Shown here one piece after another: positions 45,061-62,071 of a stretch of DNA of 64,000 bases. Numbering within the stretch: position 1 is the stretch's first letter; the number at the start of each line of letters is the position of its first letter. The notes under the pieces were generated by a model. The model saw only the letters and a list, made by a program, of their open reading frames with translations. It was not told the origin of the DNA and did no database searches. The DNA comes from Halorubrum vacuolatum (GTDB lineage: Archaea > Halobacteriota > Halobacteria > Halobacteriales > Haloferacaceae): contig NZ_FZNQ01000006.1 of assembly GCF_900188065.1 (NCBI RefSeq), forward strand, positions 1 to 64,000. Reading direction: 5' to 3'. Position numbers and translations under genes: made by a program.

Positions 45061-45281
45061 CCGTTCTATATACTCACCTTTGTTGTTCCAACGGTTAAGT
45101 CCGCATCTCTGAATATCTATGTTGATATTTGAGCTCCCGTTGCCACAATCTGCTGAGTCCGTTGGTGGATCGGCGTAACGACAACCGAACGCTCCAGCTG
45201 TGTGCCGCTCCCACGTTCTCGTCATCCATGTGCGATGAACAGAAATATTAAATTCCCACTCTCAGTATCAGACCGATGGGG

Positions 45282-45354
45282 GGCGCGTAGCTCAGTGGAC
45301 AGAGCACTTGGTTCCGGACCAAGATGTCGCGAGTTCAAATCTCGTCGCGCCCGT
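45282..45354 (+). tRNA. tRNA-Arg (anticodon CCG)
   Basis: The 73-base gene folds as a cloverleaf: acceptor GGGCGCG with CGCGCCC and discriminator G, D arm GCTC/GAGC around AGTGGACA, anticodon stem CTTGG/CCAAG with loop TTCCGGA, and T stem GCGAG/CTCGT (one G-T pair) with loop TTCAAAT. The anticodon CCG reads CGG. CCA is not encoded. The DNA beyond its 3' end turns AT-richer and holds the defence island. Confidence 0.97.
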
Positions 45355-46638: not shown

Positions 46639-49600
46639 TTAGCGGGTCTTGACAGATTCCTCATATCTCTCCAACCAATCATCAATCTCTCTTCTCCCTG
46701 CCGCTTCGTCAGGCAGAGGCACATCAAGAGTTAGCCGGCGCTGAGTCTTCGTTGCGTAAGTGGCCACACAGGCATCTGAGACAGCAGATGGTTCAGTCCA
46801 AATACGGGCACCTTTCTCACTGAGGTCACCAGCGACACGGATGATCTCGTCTTCAATTCTTCCCTCAAGCTCAGATGAGAGTTCATCAAGTAAGTACTCA
46901 AACAACTCCTGATGAGGGAGAGGAATGATGACGGAGGGGTACCACTCTAACACCTCAGGATCGAAGGATACCAACACTTCATCCTCACCAGCATATATCG
47001 CTTGTACTGTGTCTTCGGGTGGGTTACGTGGGATCGGCGGAGATGCATCTTCTGGAATCTCTAGCCGGTAGAGCTTTTGATATGGCGCATCTTCATCTTC
47101 GGTTAGCTGGCGATCAAGCATCTCGAATGTCCATCCCTTATTACGGAGGATTTGACTCTGCGTGAAGAGATGCTTCACCACTTCGGGATTCAATAAAGGC
47201 TCAAACGGCTTGTCTCGATAGCCAATTCGACCCACGTCTGGATGTGGAGTAGTCCAACCGTAGAGTTTGGCCTCTTCAATAATATCTTCAGGGCGAATCC
47301 GATCAAGCTCTTGTGCTAAACCTACTTGTCGAACCTTCTGCTCCGCTTGCTTAGATTGAGCTTCTGCCTCGGCAGCAACATCCTCTCCAGACTTCGCAGA
47401 GTCGCCCATCGCAATACTCTGCAACTCACCTTCTATGCCCTCAAGAATTGGACGCAACGGACCGACAGCCTGCTCGAATAGGTTAATACGTTCGCCAAGT
47501 CGCTCGTAGATATCTTCCTCAACGGTTTCGTCATAGACGTAGTTCCAGACGAGCACTCGCTCGTTCTTCTGGCCGATGCGGTCGATCCGTCCAATTCGCT
47601 GCTCAACTCTCTGTGGGTTCCACGGCAGATCATAGCAAATCATCGCATCGCATGTCTGGAGATTCAATCCTTCACTAGCTGAATCCGTACAGACGAGGAT
47701 CGAGAGGTCACCGTCGGTGTCAGTAAACTCTCGCTTAACACGTTCTTTGGATACTGATTTCCACTCCCCACTATCTGGCTGATAAATCTCGCCGCCGTCA
47801 CCTGAGTAGGTCCCGACATCACTATGACTGAGACAGACCTTTTCCTTGATCGCGTCAAGCGTGTCCGTGTACTGCGTAAATATGATGACGGTGTCTCGTC
47901 CTCGTGCGCTCAGCTCGGATAGATCCCGCATCAACTGTTTCAATTTGGGATCCTCGGGCACGTTGTATAGTCGCGCGATGAACTCCTCTAGTTCACTCAA
48001 CTCAAACTGACGCACTCGTTCACCAGCAGGACTGTTTGCCCCGATCTGGTCGACCCGGAGTCCGTACTCACGACGCAATACCTCCTCGCGGTCGGTGAGC
48101 GCACCCGTCTCTAGATCGCTATCTGAAACGTCCTCAATCGTCTCAGTGAAACCCGACCGCAGGCTCTCCCGGCGTCGTTTGAGTGATTCTTCGATAGCGT
48201 GAAGACTGGAGGTCAATCGTTGACGATACGTCGTCATCACGAAACCGAGCGCCGTTCGTTCTTTACCCTCCAAGAGTTTCTTCGATTGGTCATACACCTC
48301 GTCAATATAGGTCTCAACCCGCTCGTACAGTGGCTCCGCTTCACCGAGCTCAACCGAGCGAGTCTCGATCTCCCGCCGGGGAATATTCTCGTTGAGCAAG
48401 TTCGCTTCCTTACACATCCGCAGCGTCATTCGGGTGTTACGAAATACGCGGGACTTGACCGGTGTTGTTTCTTCACCTAGCTCCAGTAGGAATCGGAGAC
48501 TTTCGGGCGGTAATTGGGTGAACTTTTCCTTCCAACCTCGCGTCCCGAGACGGCTTGTTCCGAGTACTCGATGTAGTCGACGACGTCCACTCAATCCGAG
48601 GCTACTCTCATCGATACGTTCGCTCACCCACGTATCCACGTCCTCATGTTTCTGCACGAAGGCTTGCATCATCCCTACCCACGTTTGGAGTTGTCTGAGT
48701 CCTTCATCCGGTTCAGAACTCAGTTTCGAGGCCAGATCTGGAAGGATCTCCTCGACCGTTCTCGATAAATCGGTTTCGACCTCATCGAGTGCCTCTGGGA
48801 GACGTTGTTGTATCTCGAAGTACGTGTCAAACGATTTCCGGTCGTTCCAGCCATCGGGTAGGTCACACAGCCGGAGGAGATCGAATAGCTCAGTAATTTC
48901 CAGCTGCATCGGTGTTGCCGTGAGCACGTAATTGCAGGCAGTGTCTTTCTGAAGCTCGGTGAGCAGCTCGTAGAGATTCGTCCCCTTCCGCCCGTGGTGT
49001 GCCTCGTCGACGAGCGTCAGATCCCACTGGAAACGGTCTGCCGGTGGCTCGCCCGGATGTTCCTCCTGCCAGTGGACAGCTGGTGAGAACATCCCCATGT
49101 TCTGGGTCCGGCGGGCGGTATGCCATGAAGCGAGTACGACCGTTGGCTCCTCACGGTTAGAAACAAACTCGCCGATGTGAGAGTCGTCCCATGCATCGAG
49201 GGTCTCGTAGTCAGAGAGGGAGTGTTCGATTCCGTAGGCGTCCCGTAGGACGCGCTGTGCGCCGCTGTACTCATAAGAGTAGACGTTGATGTTGAACTTC
49301 TCCAGAAGCTCCTCTTGCCACTGTGGCTGGACCGTAGCGGGTACGAGGAGCAGGGCGTCGTTCACCTCACCGATGGTGAGCAGTCGCGAGATGGTGAGCC
49401 CGGCTTCGATAGTTTTCCCGAGACCGACCTCGTCACAAAACAGGAGGCTTTCGGGATAGATGCTCGCAGCCGTGTCGGCGATGACACGCTGGTGCGGCCA
49501 CGGGTCAATCGAACTGATCTCCTCGGCGATGTGGAGCGCACCGGGAAGAAGCTCGCGCTCTTTGGCGATGCGCGTGATTGTCGCTTCCGAGGCAGGTGGC

Positions 49601-50280
49601 TCGCTCGATTTTTTCAGTCGTTCGACGTGCTCCTCGATCTCCTCGTCAGACTCGGGCTGCCAGTCGAGAATGTCTCGCTCGATAGCCTCGTCGATGTCCG
49701 TGACCTCGACATCTTCGTGTTCCTCGTTCCAGAGCCGCTCGAATGTCTTCACGTCCTGTTTGACGTACTCGTTCTCGACCTCATCCCACGAGCGATGGAC
49801 TTTGAATCGCTCGTAGTTGCGATACCACGCGTTGTAAGTTTCGTTGATGCTGCCTTCAAACGTAATACGATTCCCGTCGGCGTCGGTCACGATACCGAGT
49901 TTGGGGTGGAAGATGCCCGAGTCGGAGTTATTCCGCGGTTCTCCGATCTTGAGGTGGAGTCGCTCCTCGTCCAGCATTTGGGCGATGAGAGCGAGTCGTG
50001 ACTCACCTTCCTCGGAGAGAGGGGCGTCGTCGGTAAGAACGGGTTTGTTCTCTTGACCCAGTTGTTTTGAAGCAATAATACGGATTTCTCCGTCGGTCTC
50101 GAAAGCAGATTCAATTCCTTGGAGTGCATCCGCGAGATTTTGGAGACTTAGATAGCCCGCTAAGCGGTCGTATTGAACGGCCTCTGAGAGTACCGGACGA
50201 TAGAATACGCTGACCAGAGTGTATTTTCCCGTGAAATTGCTTTCATAAATTCGCTCCCAATTTCTATCCGTAAATACCAT
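46639..50280 (-). CDS. PLD-nuclease-like/SNF2 helicase of a defence cassette
   Basis: The 1213-residue protein starts with a phospholipase-D-like region (FHPKLG, about 120, with the downstream N-E-T that partners it). A superfamily-2 SNF2-type helicase follows: DEVGLGKTIEAG (Walker A Lys about 289), DEAHH (about 424), TATPMQ (III) and the C-terminal motifs IIFTQYTDT and SEGLNLQ...RVEQRIGRIDRIGQ (V and VI, about 870-890). The PLD N-terminus plus SNF2 core recalls DrmD/BrxHII-type helicases of DISARM and BREX. It starts 4 bases after the methylase stop and closes the operon. It would remodel or translocate on DNA; nuclease activity of the PLD part is uncertain since only one HxK motif is visible. 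Confidence 0.87.
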   Translation of the reverse strand: MVFTDRNWERIYESNFTGKYTLVSVFYRPVLSEAVQYDRLAGYLSLQNLADALQGIESAFETDGEIRIIASKQLGQENKPVLTDDAPLSEEGESRLALIAQMLDEERLHLKIGEPRNNSDSGIFHPKLGIVTDADGNRITFEGSINETYNAWYRNYERFKVHRSWDEVENEYVKQDVKTFERLWNEEHEDVEVTDIDEAIERDILDWQPESDEEIEEHVERLKKSSEPPASEATITRIAKERELLPGALHIAEEISSIDPWPHQRVIADTAASIYPESLLFCDEVGLGKTIEAGLTISRLLTIGEVNDALLLVPATVQPQWQEELLEKFNINVYSYEYSGAQRVLRDAYGIEHSLSDYETLDAWDDSHIGEFVSNREEPTVVLASWHTARRTQNMGMFSPAVHWQEEHPGEPPADRFQWDLTLVDEAHHGRKGTNLYELLTELQKDTACNYVLTATPMQLEITELFDLLRLCDLPDGWNDRKSFDTYFEIQQRLPEALDEVETDLSRTVEEILPDLASKLSSEPDEGLRQLQTWVGMMQAFVQKHEDVDTWVSERIDESSLGLSGRRRLHRVLGTSRLGTRGWKEKFTQLPPESLRFLLELGEETTPVKSRVFRNTRMTLRMCKEANLLNENIPRREIETRSVELGEAEPLYERVETYIDEVYDQSKKLLEGKERTALGFVMTTYRQRLTSSLHAIEESLKRRRESLRSGFTETIEDVSDSDLETGALTDREEVLRREYGLRVDQIGANSPAGERVRQFELSELEEFIARLYNVPEDPKLKQLMRDLSELSARGRDTVIIFTQYTDTLDAIKEKVCLSHSDVGTYSGDGGEIYQPDSGEWKSVSKERVKREFTDTDGDLSILVCTDSASEGLNLQTCDAMICYDLPWNPQRVEQRIGRIDRIGQKNERVLVWNYVYDETVEEDIYERLGERINLFEQAVGPLRPILEGIEGELQSIAMGDSAKSGEDVAAEAEAQSKQAEQKVRQVGLAQELDRIRPEDIIEEAKLYGWTTPHPDVGRIGYRDKPFEPLLNPEVVKHLFTQSQILRNKGWTFEMLDRQLTEDEDAPYQKLYRLEIPEDASPPIPRNPPEDTVQAIYAGEDEVLVSFDPEVLEWYPSVIIPLPHQELFEYLLDELSSELEGRIEDEIIRVAGDLSEKGARIWTEPSAVSDACVATYATKTQRRLTLDVPLPDEAAGRREIDDWLERYEESVKTR

Positions 50281-50284
50281 TTAT

Positions 50285-53149
50285 TCAGAAATCATTGAGA
50301 GTCGTTGTTTCGTCTTCTGAACCTTCGTCTTTTATCAGCTTTCCGGCATCTATATCTAGTAGTTGGCCAGTATCCCCCGAAACCAGATTAACTAGTGTTT
50401 CGAAGTCATCGTGTGAATTGGGTATAACCTTGAGAAGACTTTCTACAGTACGTCTGAACTGCGGGTCATCAGCTAACGCTCGGTCATTCAACCAATTCCA
50501 AGTATAGTCTGACCCCTTTGTATCCAACACATTTAGCGCTGCGTGAACTGAATCAATCACATACGGATACGATTCATTTCTTGGGTCAACTGGGTAGGCT
50601 CTCTTACGCCTCTTTTCGCCAGCCTCTAATGCAGTATAGTCTCGAACGCGGTCAGATTGACCCTGTAGAATGAGTTTATCCTTACTTTTGCTCCAAATTT
50701 TTGTATCCCTCTTGATCTCGTCAATTTGAACACCAACCCCGAGCCCTAGTTGGTTTGCGTCGTCGTATGGAACGGTGGGGCGTTCGTAAATAAGCCACAT
50801 AAGTACATACCACTTGGTCAAACTGTCAACATTATCGAGGGTGTCTCCAAGTTCCTCTTCAATTAATACCTCTGTTACCGCCGCTCTTGCTTGTTCGAGA
50901 GCTTGTTCAGGCCTTATCTGGTCGTCATAAGCATCAACTACTGGATACTCTTCTGTGAATACTCGAAGAGTAGGGCCGAACGCACCAATAATGAGATCCG
51001 TTTTTGAGATGTTGACTGATGATTGAAGAAGTTCCTCGGCTTTTTCCTTCGCAATTTTTCGCGTTTTCATTTTAACATCACTCCAGAGCGACGGGGTTTC
51101 ACCTCGTACGGTCTCTCCAGAAGGTGGTTTTCTACACGCTATGAGAAGTGTACTATCTGCAGAGTTTACGTCCCTCATACCAATTCGGGCCAACTTTTCA
51201 CTTGTAACTGTATGTGTTGCAGAAATGAGAAATCCGGAGTTGATTAGAGACATTGTCAACGCATCCCAAGCCCCTGCTTCCTTATCGGTGAAGTATACAG
51301 TCAAGACTCCCCCCGGCTGGAGTACATTAAAACACTCCGAAAAAATATCTGACATTTTTTCTTCATATCGTTTCCTCGCAACCGATTGTTTCGAATCGCC
51401 TTTTCCAACCTGTTCTACAAGACCGATGTTTTCGACCGCTTCATCTGATTTGTTCGTTGTTTCGCTTGAGAACTCCTCGGGGAAGATATCCTGAAGGTAT
51501 TCTCTTAGCCAAACATAAAATGCATCGGAGAGTTCAGCATACATGACGTTATTCCCATACGGTGGGTCCACTACAACAGCATCAATTGACTCATCGGGAT
51601 AATCAAGGGATGCAGCGTCTCCTTGATTAACAGATATTTCTGTAGATTCTACTTCAGAAAAGTACCCTACTATTTCTTCATAATTCTCTATAACATCATC
51701 TACCGCAGAAAGATAGCTCAGAGAGCCTGAGAACATATTTGACTCGGCGAAAGTCCATTGAAATGCGAAATTATTCGTTCCGAACATGTTTGCAGCATAT
51801 CCACGATCTATTCGAAGGGGTGCTGCTCGACAGTTCCTTTCAATTAACTTACTAGCACTAAGTGAGAGAAGCGTGATGATAGCTTCGGCTTCCTGACCAT
51901 CATGTGTACTCCTTATTTTTTGCTTATATTCTTCAAATGCCTCTAGATAAACCGCGTGACTCAACAACTGTCGTGGAGAGAACAAATCCCTCCACTGTGT
52001 TATTCCGTAATTGCGAAGCTCTTTGGTTTTGTTTCCTTCAGATACATCTGTTGTGAGAAGAGTTGCGTAGTTCAGATTATTTGATACTTTGTCTCTCGCT
52101 TTTTTGAATGCATCTCTGTCTTTCTGAGTCGTGCCACGATATTCGGAACCGTTCCCTGATTTATACTTTACGCCGCAGATCTCATACTCAAATGCTCCTG
52201 TTCTGAACTTCTCTTTTATTGTATCTCCCTCAATGACGACAGTACATGTGGGACATTCTGCATCGGCATTTTCAACCGTCCCTTCAGATGGATTGAATCC
52301 TTCTCTGTTGGCCTCCTCTTCTGTTAAATGTTGATAATTGATAGTATTTCCGTCAATTACTGGTTTAATTGCATGCGCATTTCCAGAAGATTGTTTATAA
52401 AACCACCACTTATTCGCTAAGGGGAGCCGGGAACCGCAAGAAGGACACTCGATACTATAGGTGCAGAAATAATGTGATGGGTTTTTATCTGGGGTATCAG
52501 AGGGAAAATACGGTTCTAACTCCTCGGATGCGTATTTGTCTATTTGTTCAGCCCAATCCTTCACATCTTCTCTAATATTCCCGACTTGTGTAGGATATTC
52601 AAGTACAGCTTTATTAAGTAGCCATGCTACGGGATTCAGTTCGTTTGCTTTAGTGGGTAATCCATATCTAAGGGATTCCAGTGGGATTGTTCCACTACCT
52701 GAGGTTGGATCTAGCAGAACGGGCAAGTCGCCATCCCAATGCTGACGGAGTGTCTCGTGCAATTCATTCAGTTCATTTTTTGTTGGACTCCGGTTATGTG
52801 GATAGTCATAGCCATAGTGTTCGGGTATAGTCCCGCTACGGTTTTCCTCCGTCACGCTCTTCCTCTCGATATAATCTATTAGCGACTCTCCCTCAGGAAG
52901 CCGTTTAGGCCCAATTTTCATCAGTCTGAGTAACTTGTCGTTTGGATAGTCACTTGGAAGGATAGATGAGAGAACCGCCAATCTTGTAGCAGTTGTTGGG
53001 CGTCGTGCAAACCAAGGATGAATCAAGCGATGTGAAGACATAGTTGACCCTCCTGACTTGGTTTCTTTCATGTTCTCAATCCCGACTACTTCAGTAGGGA
53101 GTATCTGTTCAATTTTCAACTGCCGAAGTTTTTTAGTAGTTTCTGACAT
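50285..53149 (-). CDS. DUF1156/COG1743-type adenine-specific DNA methylase
   Basis: The 954-residue protein has the DUF1156 N-terminus (KIEQILPTEVVG, HPWFARRPTTATRLAV), the SAM motif LDPTSGSGTIPLESL (about 144) and the N6-adenine motif DPPYGN (about 527). CxxC pairs (ECPSCG, ECPTC) between them form a zinc ribbon insert. In BREX type 3 and related systems the PglXI methylase is of this family and marks self DNA. The start at 53149 (MSETTKKLRQLK) follows the preceding stop by 4 bases; 16 further residues could be read upstream. The gene is AT-rich, unlike the core chromosome. Confidence 0.86.
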   Translation of the reverse strand: MSETTKKLRQLKIEQILPTEVVGIENMKETKSGGSTMSSHRLIHPWFARRPTTATRLAVLSSILPSDYPNDKLLRLMKIGPKRLPEGESLIDYIERKSVTEENRSGTIPEHYGYDYPHNRSPTKNELNELHETLRQHWDGDLPVLLDPTSGSGTIPLESLRYGLPTKANELNPVAWLLNKAVLEYPTQVGNIREDVKDWAEQIDKYASEELEPYFPSDTPDKNPSHYFCTYSIECPSCGSRLPLANKWWFYKQSSGNAHAIKPVIDGNTINYQHLTEEEANREGFNPSEGTVENADAECPTCTVVIEGDTIKEKFRTGAFEYEICGVKYKSGNGSEYRGTTQKDRDAFKKARDKVSNNLNYATLLTTDVSEGNKTKELRNYGITQWRDLFSPRQLLSHAVYLEAFEEYKQKIRSTHDGQEAEAIITLLSLSASKLIERNCRAAPLRIDRGYAANMFGTNNFAFQWTFAESNMFSGSLSYLSAVDDVIENYEEIVGYFSEVESTEISVNQGDAASLDYPDESIDAVVVDPPYGNNVMYAELSDAFYVWLREYLQDIFPEEFSSETTNKSDEAVENIGLVEQVGKGDSKQSVARKRYEEKMSDIFSECFNVLQPGGVLTVYFTDKEAGAWDALTMSLINSGFLISATHTVTSEKLARIGMRDVNSADSTLLIACRKPPSGETVRGETPSLWSDVKMKTRKIAKEKAEELLQSSVNISKTDLIIGAFGPTLRVFTEEYPVVDAYDDQIRPEQALEQARAAVTEVLIEEELGDTLDNVDSLTKWYVLMWLIYERPTVPYDDANQLGLGVGVQIDEIKRDTKIWSKSKDKLILQGQSDRVRDYTALEAGEKRRKRAYPVDPRNESYPYVIDSVHAALNVLDTKGSDYTWNWLNDRALADDPQFRRTVESLLKVIPNSHDDFETLVNLVSGDTGQLLDIDAGKLIKDEGSEDETTTLNDF

Positions 53150-53153
53150 TTTA

Positions 53154-53786
53154 TTATATGTGAGATGTGAGTAACGTTCTGAGCGCTTTAACCCCATTCG
53201 AATTTGATGGTGACCTACACTTCGCGTGCCAATAATAACACTCCTCTAAACTCATTCGGGCAATACTGTCTGAAACAGTACTCAGTTTCTCGTACTTATA
53301 CAGTCGCTTCATTGCCAAGAACGCAATGGTAAGTCGAATTCCAGCACCTTCTGAAAGCACGACCGACCCTTCCCCTCGAGTTACGAAGTCGATATCAATC
53401 CCGCAGTCACCTAATACATCGCGGACCAGCCGATGAATCGCTTGCTGACGGCTGTCCGAGAGTGTCGCGATTTTCAGCGCACACCAGTCGTTCCACTGCC
53501 AATCGTTTGGAGCGCGAGCTGACGGAGCACCGACCTCGGAAAAATCGAGAACTCCAGTGGAATCCTCTCGCACGTTTGGAACAGCATCCGTGACGGACAT
53601 CCGTGTGAGTTTACGATTGCTGTTCGCCTTTCGGAATCGCTTCTGGCGTCCGTCCGCGAGATCTTCGGGAATCAGTTCGTATAATGTGAGGCCGGCGTCG
53701 TCACCGAGCCGACGCGTCAACGCGAACGTCGGCCGGCCGCCGTACATACTACTGCCGTAGGCGAACGACTCTGCCTCAATGCTCAT
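53154..53786 (-). CDS. DUF7680-like protein of the defence cassette
   Basis: The 210-residue protein sits between ATPase and methylase. Its ATG overlaps the ATPase stop by 4 bases, and it ends 4 bases before the methylase start. It has WNDWCALKIATL near the middle and a C-terminal half with EGAGIRLTIAFLAMKRL and ARMSLEECYYWHAKC. That C-terminal pattern matches what I recall of DUF7680, found in this kind of cassette; I cannot check. No catalytic motif is visible. I infer a small adaptor or specificity subunit. Confidence 0.65.
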   Translation of the reverse strand: MSIEAESFAYGSSMYGGRPTFALTRRLGDDAGLTLYELIPEDLADGRQKRFRKANSNRKLTRMSVTDAVPNVREDSTGVLDFSEVGAPSARAPNDWQWNDWCALKIATLSDSRQQAIHRLVRDVLGDCGIDIDFVTRGEGSVVLSEGAGIRLTIAFLAMKRLYKYEKLSTVSDSIARMSLEECYYWHAKCRSPSNSNGVKALRTLLTSHI

Positions 53787-56700
53787 ACACTCACCTCTTC
53801 ACTCTGCTCCGAAGCCTCCTTCACAATACCAGAGACGACCAGTTCGATGTTATTAATCCCACCGAGGCTTTCCAATGCCTCCTGTAGCACCCCAAGAGTT
53901 GCCTCGTGAGATCTGTCCTCCATCGACTCCGTATCAATGATCAGAACCGCTTCTCCTTCCGATGCTCCACCCGCACTGATGAAGCTCTCTGGGATATGGT
54001 TCGTCCCGAAGTGGTCGGCAAACTCTGCTGCGGACCCCTCGAAGCCGGCCTCGAAAATGCTGGTAGAGGCATCGTCCCCTTGTGCGACGTATTCAAACAC
54101 GATGGACGTTGCTTCCCCAATACTATCTAAATCTTTGAGTTTATTCGAGATGAACCATGCTCGCTCCCAGACTTGGTCACCCTCCAGCTCGATTTCGATG
54201 GAGTCCACCTCAACAACGACGTCGCTGCTAGATACGTCGAAGTTGTCGCGCAAACTCATCTTCTTCTGGTCGATGGTCGTGTTCACAGCGGAGAATGCTC
54301 CCGGTATGGAACTTGGTGAGTCAGTGCTTGCAGTGAATGAGAGCTCTGGCTGCTCATCAGTCCTGCCTGTCCCTCCGAATCCACCGAGGGTTCCACTACT
54401 TGATTCTTCATCACTGTCTGGGCTGGTCTCGTCCGTTCCATCTTCCTCACCTTTCAGATCCGGTTCAGGGAAATCGAGAGCGTGTTCGTCGAGCAGCGCT
54501 TCTCCACTGGCATACACGTACTGATCATCGCTGATGATTACGCTCGACATCGGGAGCTCAGTAGACATCCCCTCTGCATCTGAGAGTGTCTTGATCCCTT
54601 CGGCAGTTTCCACGGTCATTCCTTCGGAACAGTAGCCCTCCTGATTGGCATCATCCCAGTAGACGTACTTTGCCATATCACTCATCGTTACGGCTCGAAT
54701 TGTCGCCCGAAGCGGCCTCGGATCGAGAAGAATACGAATGTCTGTCCGCTTAGCGACGAGCTTACGAATATCGAGCGTGGTCATCGAATCCGGGTTTGAC
54801 TGCCAGATTCGGTTTCTGAACCATGTCGTACCGAGTGCCCCCTCATCCTGTGTGATGAGTTTGTCAAGGCTTTCGAGGTTCTCAAAGACGATGTCGTGGA
54901 GGTCTGAACTGTCGCTAACGGAATCGATAGTCTCGTTCGATAGACCTCCCGAGTCCGGATAGTAGAGATGTCGGTAGGACTGTCGAACCGATTCACCAAG
55001 CAGTGCTGACTCCTTCTGAAGACGTTCATCAAGGTCATCCCGCTGTGCACTGTTGAGTTCAGCCTCCCATGCCTCCCCGTTGAGAATTCGCTCCATCGCC
55101 TTCACCCGTCGCGCGTGATCGAGCGCGCCGCTCATCTCCTGCTCACCAGCTGCGAGGGAGATCACGTTGTTCCGATAGACTCGCTTCTTTTCCGATCCCG
55201 GTGAGTTTCCGGTCTTGTTTGCGAGTGTCTGGAGGAGCTCCGGCGGTTCGTCAAGATCGCTCGTGACCGTCACGGCATCAAATCCCATCACACAGAGCCG
55301 AACAATATCGTAGTCGTCTGGAACCTCATACGGAGCCTGCGGGTCATAGATCGTCTCGAAAATACCCCCACCGAGTGCACCCCCAATCGTTTGTTCGAGA
55401 CGGTTCCGAGCGACCCCGGGCTCGATCTGTTTTGCCTCGTTAGTAATGAGCTTGGAGATCTTGGGCTCACCCTTGAACCGAAGCAATCCGTTCTCTGTTT
55501 CGTAAAGGAAGAACGCTTCAGTGTCAGGGTTCGAGCCGGTTTCGTTTAGATTCTTCAGTGCATCACGATAGTGGTCGAGTTCAACATCGGGTTCCAGAAT
55601 CATCTCCCAGAGTTTCCGACGTGTCACTCCTCGCCCTCGGTTCCCGCCGGAAACGATGCTTTTCCACAGAATACTCGTTCCGAGATGGGTTGCTATCGGC
55701 GGATGTCCCATCGGCGTCCAGTTGTCATCCTCATACTGGCAGGCTGCTTTGCCATCATTTGTGTAGATATCTGACTTGGCTGCCGTGCGAAGGTCCTGCT
55801 CAATGTGCTCAAACAGGTCGAGAAGCGTTGACCAAACGTAATCGTCCGAGGGATGCATGTCAAACGCACGGACGTAGTGACGATTCGTATTCGCTGCTTC
55901 ATCATTCCAAATGTGATGGACTGCCCGCGAGACCAGTTTGAGCGCTCCACGGGTACGTTGGAAATTAGGGAGAGTGTCTATCTCTTTGCCGAGGAGATCA
56001 ATGAGGGTTGGGTGGAACGGATATGTTTCTTCGAGCTGTTCTCGGAATTCAGCTTTGGTAACTCTGTCCGGCAGTTCATCCTCAAAGCCTCGATAGAATT
56101 GTTGATACTCGTCAGCAACTCGGGAGGCGGCATCATCGTTGATGCTCTCGAACAACCGATGACGAAGAACTGCTGCGACTTCGTCATCAGCAGTGGGTGT
56201 GACAGCGTGTTCAGTACGCTCAGAGATGCCGTCAAGATCAGAGATTAGCTCTTGCACTTGCTGTGCACGTTCCTCGAATGCAGTAGCAGACACGGAGAGA
56301 ATGACTGTGACGGTGTCAGTGTTCTGCGTTGCACGCATCAATGACCATAGGAAGGAGTTCGTCTGATCGGCTAGTGTTGACTCCTCAAGCCCAACAGCGG
56401 CGGCTTGTTCAAAGTACTGAGCTACCTCATCGATAAGCACTAGTCCGGGATCTTCCATCGACTCGAACAGGTCAACGATATCAGACTCTCCCGGAGCGAT
56501 GCGATCCTTATCGTACTGACTAAACATCGCATAGCCCTCTGCACCAGCCAGCTGGTATGCGATTTCACCCCACATCGTTTGGGTGTCAGGAGCACTCGGG
56601 TCGCTCTTGTTGCATTTAGCGTTGCTAGCGCTGACATACCCTCCCTCGAAGACAGCAGTCCGAACCGATAGATCGTTTTTGTGCTTCTCAAAGCTCGCAC

Positions 56701-57082
56701 GTGCTTCATCGTCAAGAATATACTCAGATAAATCGTCAATCGCGTCCGGATTTTGTGAGAAGTGGTATGCGGCGATTTGCGAGTGGGTTTTGCCCCCACC
56801 GAACACTGTATCGAGGGACAACAACCCATCCTTACCGCTGAATTCGTCCCGGTGTTTTCCAACATACCGTTTTGCAAGCAGTGTGAGAAGATCCTGAAGT
56901 CCATCAGTCGGATACGTTTTTTCAAAGAATGTATCGGGGTTACCGTAGATCTCTGGTGTTTCTTTGGGTCGGAAAACTACGTCAGAGAGCTTTGCTGCGA
57001 ACTCATTTTCCGAGAGGGTTCCCGCCAAAACATCGTCGTGCGGAACGCACGACTCAAGCAGTGTGGGGATCTGTGAGGCCAT
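53783..57082 (-). CDS. DUF499 (BrxC/PglY-like) P-loop ATPase
   Basis: The 1099-residue AAA-type ATPase heads the defence operon. DTVFGGGKTHSQIA (Walker A, about 93-100) and LVLIDEVAQYF (Walker B, about 214-224) are clear; SATAFEERAQ is the sensor region. A central helical part and an acidic/Ser-rich low-complexity zone (about 930-970) lead to a beta-rich C-terminal domain. DUF499 is the family of BrxC and PglY, the large ATPases essential to BREX. The start at 57082 (MASQIPTLLE) is taken because a TATA-like TTACTAATAG (minus strand, about 57107-57116) would start transcription near 57086; an ATG at 57097 is the alternative. It is divergent from a winged-helix gene, 173 bases away. Confidence 0.86.
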   Translation of the reverse strand: MASQIPTLLESCVPHDDVLAGTLSENEFAAKLSDVVFRPKETPEIYGNPDTFFEKTYPTDGLQDLLTLLAKRYVGKHRDEFSGKDGLLSLDTVFGGGKTHSQIAAYHFSQNPDAIDDLSEYILDDEARASFEKHKNDLSVRTAVFEGGYVSASNAKCNKSDPSAPDTQTMWGEIAYQLAGAEGYAMFSQYDKDRIAPGESDIVDLFESMEDPGLVLIDEVAQYFEQAAAVGLEESTLADQTNSFLWSLMRATQNTDTVTVILSVSATAFEERAQQVQELISDLDGISERTEHAVTPTADDEVAAVLRHRLFESINDDAASRVADEYQQFYRGFEDELPDRVTKAEFREQLEETYPFHPTLIDLLGKEIDTLPNFQRTRGALKLVSRAVHHIWNDEAANTNRHYVRAFDMHPSDDYVWSTLLDLFEHIEQDLRTAAKSDIYTNDGKAACQYEDDNWTPMGHPPIATHLGTSILWKSIVSGGNRGRGVTRRKLWEMILEPDVELDHYRDALKNLNETGSNPDTEAFFLYETENGLLRFKGEPKISKLITNEAKQIEPGVARNRLEQTIGGALGGGIFETIYDPQAPYEVPDDYDIVRLCVMGFDAVTVTSDLDEPPELLQTLANKTGNSPGSEKKRVYRNNVISLAAGEQEMSGALDHARRVKAMERILNGEAWEAELNSAQRDDLDERLQKESALLGESVRQSYRHLYYPDSGGLSNETIDSVSDSSDLHDIVFENLESLDKLITQDEGALGTTWFRNRIWQSNPDSMTTLDIRKLVAKRTDIRILLDPRPLRATIRAVTMSDMAKYVYWDDANQEGYCSEGMTVETAEGIKTLSDAEGMSTELPMSSVIISDDQYVYASGEALLDEHALDFPEPDLKGEEDGTDETSPDSDEESSSGTLGGFGGTGRTDEQPELSFTASTDSPSSIPGAFSAVNTTIDQKKMSLRDNFDVSSSDVVVEVDSIEIELEGDQVWERAWFISNKLKDLDSIGEATSIVFEYVAQGDDASTSIFEAGFEGSAAEFADHFGTNHIPESFISAGGASEGEAVLIIDTESMEDRSHEATLGVLQEALESLGGINNIELVVSGIVKEASEQSEEVSV

Positions 57083-57255
57083 TGATGATATGATCATAGA
57101 TGTATGGCTATTAGTAAGTAGTTACGCACCCCTCCAGACCAAATCAACCGCCACACGGAACAGCGCAGGGGCACCTGTTCATATTGCATCTGGTTGGAAT
57201 AGAGTAAGGCTTCGGCCAAGGCTTTATCATAATTTGACCAAAATGAAAGTGTATA

Positions 57256-59060: not shown

Positions 59061-59609
59061 CTACACTGATGGCGGCTTCACAATGAGATCCTCCTCAAAG
59101 AGTAGATTTTGTAGTTGCTCAAACGACTCGGAGACAGTGGCCTCCCCGGTATTGATGACTGCATCATACACCTGACGATCCTCAATATCGATCCCATAAA
59201 ATTCGCGAGCCCTGAAACGAATGGATCTTTCGATAGACGGCACTCTTTCGCTGGCTTTTGCTACAGATATTCCCTCCCGATCAGCAAAACGTCGTATTCG
59301 CTGTTTATGGGGTGCGGTCATCCAGATATGTAAAGCAGTATTATCTAATCGATGTCCGGAATAGCAAGACTCTAAGATCACCCGATTGTACTCAGCGACT
59401 CGGCTGCGGATCTTGGCGTCCAGTTCCCGGTCGAGTTCTTCGTTCTCACAAAGCGTCTGGTCAAAGGCGACCAAACTCTGTCCGTGAGCTTCTGCAGCCT
59501 CACGAACGATCTCACCTGCCTCAATACGAGTGAAGGAATATCGATCTGCAAGCCGCATAGCCAGCGTCGTTGTTCCACTAGCTGGGTATCCCGAGAGTAC
59601 GATATTCAT
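59061..59609 (-). CDS. Cytidylate-kinase-like P-loop kinase
   Basis: The 182-residue protein resembles nucleoside monophosphate kinases of the Cmk type: MNIVLSGYPASGTTTLAMRL is the P-loop, LDRELDAKIRSRVAE and VILESCYSG follow, and RFADREGISVAKASERV is the lid-like part. The Walker lysine is replaced by Thr (SGTTT), a variant that I recall from some archaeal cytidylate kinases. In an AT-rich island beside defence genes it may be a paralogue with another substrate. It converges with the membrane protein gene (14 bases between). Confidence 0.7.
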   Translation of the reverse strand: MNIVLSGYPASGTTTLAMRLADRYSFTRIEAGEIVREAAEAHGQSLVAFDQTLCENEELDRELDAKIRSRVAEYNRVILESCYSGHRLDNTALHIWMTAPHKQRIRRFADREGISVAKASERVPSIERSIRFRAREFYGIDIEDRQVYDAVINTGEATVSESFEQLQNLLFEEDLIVKPPSV

Positions 59610-60357: not shown

Positions 60358-61128
60358 ATGTCGTCAGAATCACAGGCCTGTCGCCAGTGCCCTGCGTGCA
60401 GTTCGGAACAAATTGATCGAACCATCGACGACATAGGCGGAATCTGTGAGGCCTGTGGATTTGTGGTTGATCACGATTCTGTCTCCCTTGACTGGGAAAT
60501 TGCAGACGGCGTACTCCGCCGGTCAAATAATAGAGAGTGGCGCTCGGCGTGTCACATACACAATGCCACTGAAAAACGGCTGATGCAGGCTATTGAAATA
60601 TTAGAGACTCTAGGCGATGATCTCGATCTCTCGAACGATCTCCGTGATGCAGCGGTTGATGTCTATTGTGATGCTTTTCGGTCTGGAGTCACTGACGGGC
60701 GAGTCACCGCATGTGTGGTCGCCGTGGCGTTGTGCATTGCCTCACGACGCACAGGCCATCCCATCCCAATGAGTCGGCTCACTCAGAGCGAGCAAGTTGA
60801 CGAAACAAAATACAACCGCTGTTACATTGCTGTTTGTGACGCTCTAGATGTCGATTTGCAACTTCTAAGCCCATCAGATTACTTGGCATTTATTCGTGGA
60901 CAGCTATCGGGTGAGACTGACGATCAGGATCCTGCAGCAGAACTACTAGACGCTGTTGGAGAGGATACACAATTTGTCGGGAAGGATCCCGCGGGAGTCG
61001 CTGCTGCCAGCGTCTATCTCGTTGAACAAGAGCACACTCAAAAGGAGGTTGCCGAGGTCGTCGGATTATCTACAGAAACGATCCGTCAGCGGGTAAGCGA
61101 CCTACGAGAGGTGGCTGACGATGTTTGA
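60358..61128 (+). CDS. TFB (transcription initiation factor IIB) paralogue
   Basis: The 256-residue protein has an N-terminal zinc ribbon (CRQCPACS ... CEACGF, about 8-35), the region VDHDSVSLDWE, and two cyclin-like repeats (about 65-155 and 160-256). The second repeat ends with TQKEVAEVVGLSTETIRQRV, the helix-turn-helix that reads the BRE. It is shorter than chromosomal TFBs (about 320), with a reduced linker. TFBs recruit RNA polymerase to TATA promoters; haloarchaea use several. This copy is in an operon with a serine recombinase, so it may direct expression of element genes. The start at 60358 (MSSESQACRQC) follows directly after a stop-rich region. Confidence 0.85.
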   Translation: MSSESQACRQCPACSSEQIDRTIDDIGGICEACGFVVDHDSVSLDWEIADGVLRRSNNREWRSACHIHNATEKRLMQAIEILETLGDDLDLSNDLRDAAVDVYCDAFRSGVTDGRVTACVVAVALCIASRRTGHPIPMSRLTQSEQVDETKYNRCYIAVCDALDVDLQLLSPSDYLAFIRGQLSGETDDQDPAAELLDAVGEDTQFVGKDPAGVAAASVYLVEQEHTQKEVAEVVGLSTETIRQRVSDLREVADDV

Positions 61129-62071
61129 TCGAGATCAAGTCCGGACCCGAGTCGCTGAGCAGGATGATCCCGATGAACTACGAGCAGCAGTGTATGCGCG
61201 CACCTCATCGACAAGCCAGAAGTACGGATACTCACTCGATGAGCAAGTGAGTCGGTGTCTTAGCCGATGTAGATTGCTCGGCTGGGACGTGCTGTTCGTG
61301 TATCGAGACGGTGCCGAGAGTGGCAAAGATACTGACCGACCGATGTTTAAACGGATGCTTAGCGCCGCCGAGAAGCGAGTATTTGACGTGATCGTCTTTT
61401 GGAAGCTAGATCGGTTTTCTAGAAGCCTTTTACACGCAGTCCAGCTGGAATCAGAACTCCGGCAGCATGGTGTGTATCTGTATTCAGTGACTGAACAGAT
61501 CGATACGACCTCTGCAACTGGGAGATTTAATTTTAGGAATCTGGCGAGTGCCGCCGAATTTGAGAGGGATATGATCCGCCAACGCACCCAGATAGGGCTT
61601 GATGCACTTGCATCTGAGGCATGCTGGCCCAATGCCTCTGCGCCACTTGGATACAAGATCGACAACGACGGACGTCTACAGATTATCGAGGAAGAGGCGG
61701 AATTGGTGAGAGATATTTTTGAAATGTATATCAAGGCCAGATCGATGCCTGACGTAGCAGCGGATCTGAACAGCAGAGGTATCCAGACCAAGCAAGGTGG
61801 GGACTGGACACCACGTGCGGTCGGCGACGTGCTCCGGAACGAGATATATACAGGCCAGTACGAAGTTGGCGAGATTTCGAAGCATGTTCAAGAATACCAA
61901 ATCATCAAGACAGAGATATTTGAGGAGGTCACGGCCATCCGTCGGCGGTTTGTCGAGGATGAAGATGCGAAGAGGTCACCGATGGCCGACAGCCGCAAAG
62001 AGCGCGCTATCACCCGCGTACGTGAGATGTACCGGGACTACCGAGAGGGATCAATCGGTGATAGCTTATGA
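61121..62071 (+). CDS. Serine recombinase (resolvase/invertase family)
   Basis: The 316-residue protein starts inside the end of the TFB gene (8-base overlap). The resolvase domain holds the catalytic serine at about position 29 (VYARTSSTSQ; usual form YaRvStdeQ), the arginine helix FWKLDRFSRSLLHAV and the segment FNFRNLASAAEFERDMIRQRT. A recombinase domain (PLGYKIDNDGRLQIIEEEAEL ... YIKARSMPDVAADLNSRGIQTKQGG) follows and binds the site. It lacks the long zinc/coiled-coil C-terminus of large integrases, so it is a mid-sized form. It probably moves or inverts the local DNA; no attachment site was found. Confidence 0.88.
   Translation: MFDRDQVRTRVAEQDDPDELRAAVYARTSSTSQKYGYSLDEQVSRCLSRCRLLGWDVLFVYRDGAESGKDTDRPMFKRMLSAAEKRVFDVIVFWKLDRFSRSLLHAVQLESELRQHGVYLYSVTEQIDTTSATGRFNFRNLASAAEFERDMIRQRTQIGLDALASEACWPNASAPLGYKIDNDGRLQIIEEEAELVRDIFEMYIKARSMPDVAADLNSRGIQTKQGGDWTPRAVGDVLRNEIYTGQYEVGEISKHVQEYQIIKTEIFEEVTAIRRRFVEDEDAKRSPMADSRKERAITRVREMYRDYREGSIGDSL

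Follow-up and report, generated by a model that had tools for sequence, protein, structure and literature searches.

The four-gene operon described here, on the minus strand of a 64,000-nucleotide stretch of Halorubrum vacuolatum DNA (the window), is best explained, with a probability of about 0.78, as a haloarchaeal branch of the Type-2 BREX-Related (BR) systems in which the methylase would specify restriction and the DUF7680 protein would belong to a common scaffold. The four ORFs are real, intact and tightly packed, and encode a DUF499 ATPase, a small DUF7680 protein, a DUF1156 methylase and an HKD(PLD)-Snf2 helicase (Table 1). DUF499-centred BREX-Related systems were defined by Rakesh & Krishnan 2026 (PMC12839542), Type-2 BR being composed of DUF499, DUF3780, a DUF1156 N6-MTase and an HKD-Snf2 helicase. 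That the operon is a divergent, haloarchaeal branch of a Type-2 BR-like system is held with very high confidence. Its new feature is DUF7680 in place of DUF3780, in a layout otherwise already published as Type-2 BR, so that it is not an undescribed BREX/DISARM hybrid and an earlier description from the DNA alone (hereafter the sequence-only reading) as a BREX/DISARM-related operon is superseded. The range of Type-2 BR-like systems thereby comes to include haloarchaea, many Actinomycetota and some few further bacteria, in a form that the DUF3780 model misses.

Table 1. Features of the operon and its element (window positions), and small subunits found alone on phage contigs (positions within each locus).
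Feature	Position	Strand	Basis
DUF499 AAA+ ATPase (HmaC/BrxC-like), 1104 aa	53783..57097	-	PF04465 5.5e-36; PADLOC HmaC 283 bits; conserved Walker A/B
Walker A GGGKTH of DUF499, residues 100-105	56783..56800	-	in 93-100% of relatives, the remainder being alignment gaps
DUF7680 small subunit, 210 aa, remote DUF3780 homologue	53154..53786	-	PF24728 6.8e-35; profile link via bacterial relatives; model
DUF1156/COG1743-type N6-adenine methylase with Zn-finger insert, up to 970 aa	50285..53197	-	Pfam, PADLOC, NCBIfam; haloarchaeal conservation of motif I, DPPY and four Cys; cassette exchange
DPPY catalytic motif of methylase	51557..51568	-	D, P and Y at 100% and the second P at 95% or more in each of the three groups
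HKD(PLD)-Snf2 helicase, 1213 aa, presumed nuclease effector	46639..50280	-	SNF2, Helicase_C, PLDc_2; NCBIfam phospholipD_antiphage 281 bits, cut-off 1100
HKD active site of helicase, H-x-K to GSxN	49843..49908	-	all five residues (H, K, G, S, N) at 100% in helicases of both the DUF7680 and the DUF3780 type
3' end of tRNA-Arg(CCG) 45281-45353, probable attachment site	45341..45354	+	14-bp repeat, integrase, GC drop
Standalone small subunits	L166:9992-10447; L167:5185-5688; L168:8555-9031; L169:9758-10231		phage contigs
Standalone small subunits	L170:931-1407; L146:9914-10345; L147:9911-10345; L172:5944-6459		phage contigs; L146 and L147 DUF7680-like

Gene layout, families and related systems

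The first ATG of the DUF499 gene places its start at 57097, the previously noted 57082 being the second ATG. The methylase likely starts at its second ATG, at 53149, which leaves a 4-bp gap to the DUF7680 gene, in place of the 44-bp overlap obtained from the first ATG at 53197. With DUF499 and DUF7680 overlapping by 4 bp and methylase and helicase separated by 4 bp, the 4-base gaps or overlaps described earlier for these four minus-strand genes are correct if the methylase starts at 53149. The survey of haloarchaeal neighbourhoods upheld the grouping: all 20 of the 20 loci taken had the order DUF499-DUF7680-methylase, and 19 also had the helicase downstream, none being seen within the fetched stretch of the 20th. 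An independent scan of genomes found the operon gene order again at almost every locus, and the arrangement is therefore not due to chance.

Some variation around this layout was observed. At one locus (L034:3627-8084, genome G037) approximately 1.5 kb of inserted DNA splits the methylase gene, and two plasmids carry one intact operon and a second, frame-broken copy (L085 and L086 on CP132293; L094 and L093 on CP118160). In a haloarchaeal subgroup (L075, L077, L082 and L104) methylase and helicase are separated by extra genes; the extra gene is an AAA_11/AAA_12 helicase of ~743 aa in L077, with a gene of the same size in L075 and L104, and encodes an Nmad3 protein in L082.

The families named in the sequence-only reading (DUF499, DUF7680-like, DUF1156/COG1743 methylase and PLD-SNF2 helicase) were confirmed by Pfam and PADLOC profiles. 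In Pfam searches the methylase matched DUF1156 at 7e-5 (23.3 bits, just below the cut-off of 24) together with UPF0020 and N6_N4_Mtase, and the helicase matched SNF2 (6e-16), Helicase_C (1e-18) and, at residues 53-184, PLDc_2 (7.6e-7). The best PADLOC matches of the DUF499 protein and the methylase were HmaC (283 bits) and HmaB (202 bits), respectively, and the helicase matched DrmD (188 bits), HmaA (187 bits), BrxH and PbeA about equally. HmaA, HmaB and HmaC matches are thus all present together (187, 202 and 283 bits, on profile scores alone). The NCBIfam anti-phage DUF499, DUF1156 and PLD equivalogs gave 206, 154 and 281 bits, far under the curated cut-offs of 1200, 1000 and 1100, which makes the operon a distant member of these families. 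Besides the motifs in Table 1, the Walker B of DUF499 (DE, residues 223-224) was conserved in an alignment of relatives, and methylase motif I and the inspected Snf2 motifs of the helicase were intact and conserved. Haloarchaea retain four Cys of the methylase insert at 100%, whereas the bacterial DUF7680-type relatives have mostly lost them.

The likeness to Type-2 BR covers gene content and order, the N-terminal HKD domain on the Snf2 helicase, the absence of PglZ and a DUF1156 methylase with an internal insert, which here carries the four Cys and is accompanied by motif I and DPPY. The difference lies in the small subunit: DUF3780, reported in 98% of Type-2 loci and without known homologues (PMC12839542), gave no PF12635 match, and its remote homologue DUF7680 stands at that position. 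Operons of the DUF3780 form in plasmid records showed the same gene order as the window operon; a Deinococcus DUF3780-type locus was broken by insertions. In the DUF499 tree, haloarchaeal DUF7680-type (support 100), bacterial DUF7680-type (84) and DUF3780-type sequences (100) formed separate groups, the two DUF7680 groups joining with a support of only 81. The window-type DUF499 is a separate branch, yet DUF7680-type and DUF3780-type sequences grouped together with a support of 100 against the 12 other haloarchaeal DUF499 sequences included as contrast, none of them a verified Type-1 BR reference.

Type-2 BR corresponds partly to the Hma system of PADLOC (Payne 2021, PMC8565338), which provides the best PADLOC matches for the window ATPase and methylase but has a three-gene definition without a small subunit; the Halomonas HmaA experiment is that of Liu 2024, as cited in PMC12839542. 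The previously proposed kinship with Type-3 BREX components was supported by the PADLOC matches and by PMC12839542, with homologous ATPase, methylase and Snf2 helicase. However, PglZ is part of Type-3 BREX, whereas the window operon has an HKD nuclease on the helicase and an ATPase that matches DUF499 (5.5e-36) better than the BrxC (DUF6079) type, PADLOC BrxC giving only 19 bits. The earlier remark that PglZ and BrxA were not seen can be widened for PglZ (PF08665), which had no match in the whole 3.48-Mb assembly in a search that detected its positive controls; BrxA also had no match, in a search that missed its own positive controls too. BREX membership was rejected on the lack of PglZ in the genome and on an ATPase of DUF499 rather than BrxC type. 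DISARM shares the DrmD-like Snf2 helicase (188 bits) but differs in its DrmA/DrmB/DrmC set, and a scan of the proteins of the operon and its neighbours found none of DrmA, DrmB (DUF1998) or DrmC. This genome has two MZB/DUF1998 genes, both on contigs other than that of the operon, and DISARM membership was rejected since no DrmA/DrmB/DrmC set accompanies the methylase. The family of the window operon is not mentioned in a survey of archaeal restriction systems (PMC10609329).

DUF7680 and its relationship to DUF3780

The remote homology of DUF7680 and DUF3780 is held almost as firmly as the Type-2 BR assignment itself. Profile searches found DUF7680 in 47 of 292 Halobacteria genomes and DUF3780 in none of the 292; DUF3780 was detected elsewhere in the phylum, so its model works. 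Of 49 DUF7680 genes, 47 were within 4 kb of a high-scoring DUF499, the other two genomes having an ATPase piece on a separate contig. Conversely, strong haloarchaeal DUF499 matches without DUF7680 were seen at a contig edge, where the locus stops (G263), and as a lone DUF499 (G162:C2) whose genome contains a full operon besides. A scan of genome contigs revealed DUF7680 relatives with the same gene order in Actinomycetota and a few other bacteria. Two Rhodococcus plasmids carry the same DUF7680-type operon, and in Picosynechococcus pAQ6 DUF7680 is flanked by DUF499 and DUF1156 genes, although further genes have been inserted between them. A different, unclassified arrangement occurs at four loci (L173, L174, L175 and L177), where two DUF1156-like methylase ORFs surround one haloarchaeal DUF499, with no Snf2 helicase match within the fetched stretch.

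These bacterial relatives provided the link between the two families. In profile comparisons, haloarchaeal DUF7680 matched bacterial DUF7680 with an E-value of 1.2e-30, and bacterial DUF7680 matched DUF3780 with a score of 45.4 (probability 89.6, E 1.9e-6, 139 columns), as against a maximum of 17.3 in 60 column shuffles of DUF3780. The bacterial bridge was needed, the haloarchaeal DUF7680 profile compared directly with DUF3780 giving no link (E 0.12). AlphaFold2 models of the window DUF7680 (pLDDT 87, pTM 0.86) and of a DUF3780 (pLDDT 76, pTM 0.70) had the same main strand-helix order, b-b-b-a-b-a-a-a-a (the order having been compared, not superposed models), with an insertion in DUF7680 relative to DUF3780 at about residues 41-100. 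Foldseek searches of the DUF7680 model against PDB and BFVD returned nothing below E 0.07, that is, no PDB or viral relative, and no mention of DUF7680 by name was found in the literature searched. Two domains of unknown function are thus merged into one superfamily, DUF3780 having been left without detectable homologues in PMC12839542.

Methylase exchange and the proposed mode of action

Exchange of the methylase was examined in 86 complete operons, 47 pairs of which had DUF499 proteins at least 95% identical. Across these 47 pairs the median identity was 97% for the helicase, 98% for the small subunit and 75% for the methylase (minimum 52%), and six of the seven chassis clusters defined at the same DUF499 threshold combined a single helicase type with two to four types of methylase. 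The nucleotide identity of L084 and L111 was ~95% up to the exact DUF7680 stop codon, 56% over the methylase and again ~95% from the helicase start. Four further pairs (L093/L098, L055/L059, L107/L109 and L149/L150) diverged mainly before about residue 610 of the methylase, the C-terminal third staying close to the chassis; this third is likely a docking part. The window methylase itself was 52-55% identical to those of the closest sister operons, as compared with 81-87% for DUF499, 78-84% for the helicase and 81-91% for the small subunit. These alignments indicate that the methylase is an exchangeable cassette on a fixed chassis of ATPase, DUF7680 and helicase. Fast evolution could account for the methylase gap in some pairs, but exchange is favoured over rapid divergence because the DNA borders are sharp.

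In Type I restriction-modification systems HsdS is the exchangeable specificity part. The window operon resembles these systems and BREX PglX in combining a fixed chassis with an exchangeable specificity part, and differs from HsdS in that a single gene provides both methylase and specificity and is replaced either as a whole or over its first two thirds. PglX was shown experimentally to be the specificity factor of BREX (PMC11341690). From the exchange pattern, the choice of target in both modification and restriction probably rests with the methylase alone, as with PglX, and the restricting parts and DUF7680 would not themselves recognise the motif. Methylase-only exchange makes the question of specificity directly testable by a change of one gene.

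Type-2 BR has been read as restriction-modification-like, with nuclease domains taking the place of PglZ, and the HKD domain of the helicase is assigned the PglZ nuclease role in the published scheme (PMC12839542). On the sequence data, it is likely that the window operon is a restriction-modification-like defence whose specificity factor is the methylase, and its role is probably antiviral. The DUF1156 methylase, through its inserted target-recognition region, would recognise a short DNA motif and N6-methylate it on host DNA, while the DUF499 ATPase and DUF7680 would form a common scaffold. Once the complex containing the methylase met the unmethylated motif on invading DNA, the HKD-Snf2 effector would be engaged, translocate on that DNA and cut it.

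Within this scheme, the role somewhat favoured for DUF7680 is that of a structural adaptor in the ATPase-centred complex. DUF3780 has been proposed as a reader of methylated or modified DNA, since some DUF3780 proteins are fusions with ASCH/PUA or RAMA reader domains and DUF3780 occurs where the TUDOR domain is missing (PMC12839542). A DUF7680/DUF3780 reader gating the effector, without sequence specificity, is less likely than the adaptor and on balance rather unlikely. The small subunit stays ~98% identical while the methylase is exchanged and so cannot be motif-specific, an argument that could still leave room for reading of N6mA in any context. It is improbable that the operon is a methylation module for plasmid or element maintenance or host regulation and not antiviral. 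It is often found on haloarchaeal plasmids and here on an integrated element, but the HKD nuclease and helicase motifs are invariant, DUF262 genes and toxin-antitoxin pairs are found among the neighbours at related loci, and the methylase exchange resembles the switching of restriction specificity. Least credible is the sequence-only reading's compact system of BREX/DISARM type, with the small protein taking over the function of PglZ or BrxF: the DUF499, methylase and helicase are homologous to Type-3 BREX parts (PMC12839542) and PglZ is missing, but this replacement was rejected given that DUF7680 is homologous to DUF3780, its confident model has no detectable fold relative and the helicase already has an intact HKD nuclease site.

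Phage-borne small subunits and the integrated element

Viral contigs carry DUF3780 or DUF7680-like genes alone, without the rest of the system (Table 1). The small subunit of L166 lies beside terminase and portal genes, recombination exonuclease genes are near those of L168 and L169 (with a tape-measure gene in L169), and the DUF7680-like gene of L146 follows tail genes. In the complete genome of Proteus phage Pm34, DUF3780 is gp4 and follows a 190-residue DUF499 C-terminus, the two being 71% and 79% identical to a system on a viral contig. A DUF499 C-terminus accompanying phage orphans in general was rejected, as this is true only of Pm34, and no match to DUF7680 was found in INPHARED phages. 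The tree, in which several branches are long, implies at least five separate origins of the standalone copies, which are candidate inhibitors of BR systems. Tentatively, phages may have repeatedly captured the small subunit, their copies acting as dominant-negative decoys that disable the ATPase complex, with DUF3780/DUF7680 a vulnerable hub of BR systems; as part of the same speculation, BR systems might respond to changing invaders through exchange of their methylase cassettes, the chassis staying fixed. For the Pm34 copy, a remnant of a transduced operon is an equally simple reading.

The surroundings of the operon bear out a mobile, defence-type context. The GC content falls from ~66% to ~48% at tRNA-Arg(CCG) and does not rise again until about contig position 108,000. 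A 14-bp copy of the tRNA-Arg 3' end lies at contig position 95995-96008 and adjoins a tyrosine integrase gene at 94884-95894 (Phage_integrase 1.8e-11). The operon is thus probably on an integrated, probably acquired element of ~50 kb in tRNA-Arg (contig G000:C47 45354-96008), the 14-bp repeat alone being weak evidence. Since the low GC runs on to ~108 kb, a second insertion, nested or adjacent, may exist. The element also carries, at 59061-59609, a (d)CMP-kinase-like gene (TIGR02173 114 bits) that matches PADLOC viperin-associated kinase models as well and, at 60358-62071, a gene for a divergent TFIIB-like protein that overlaps a serine recombinase gene.
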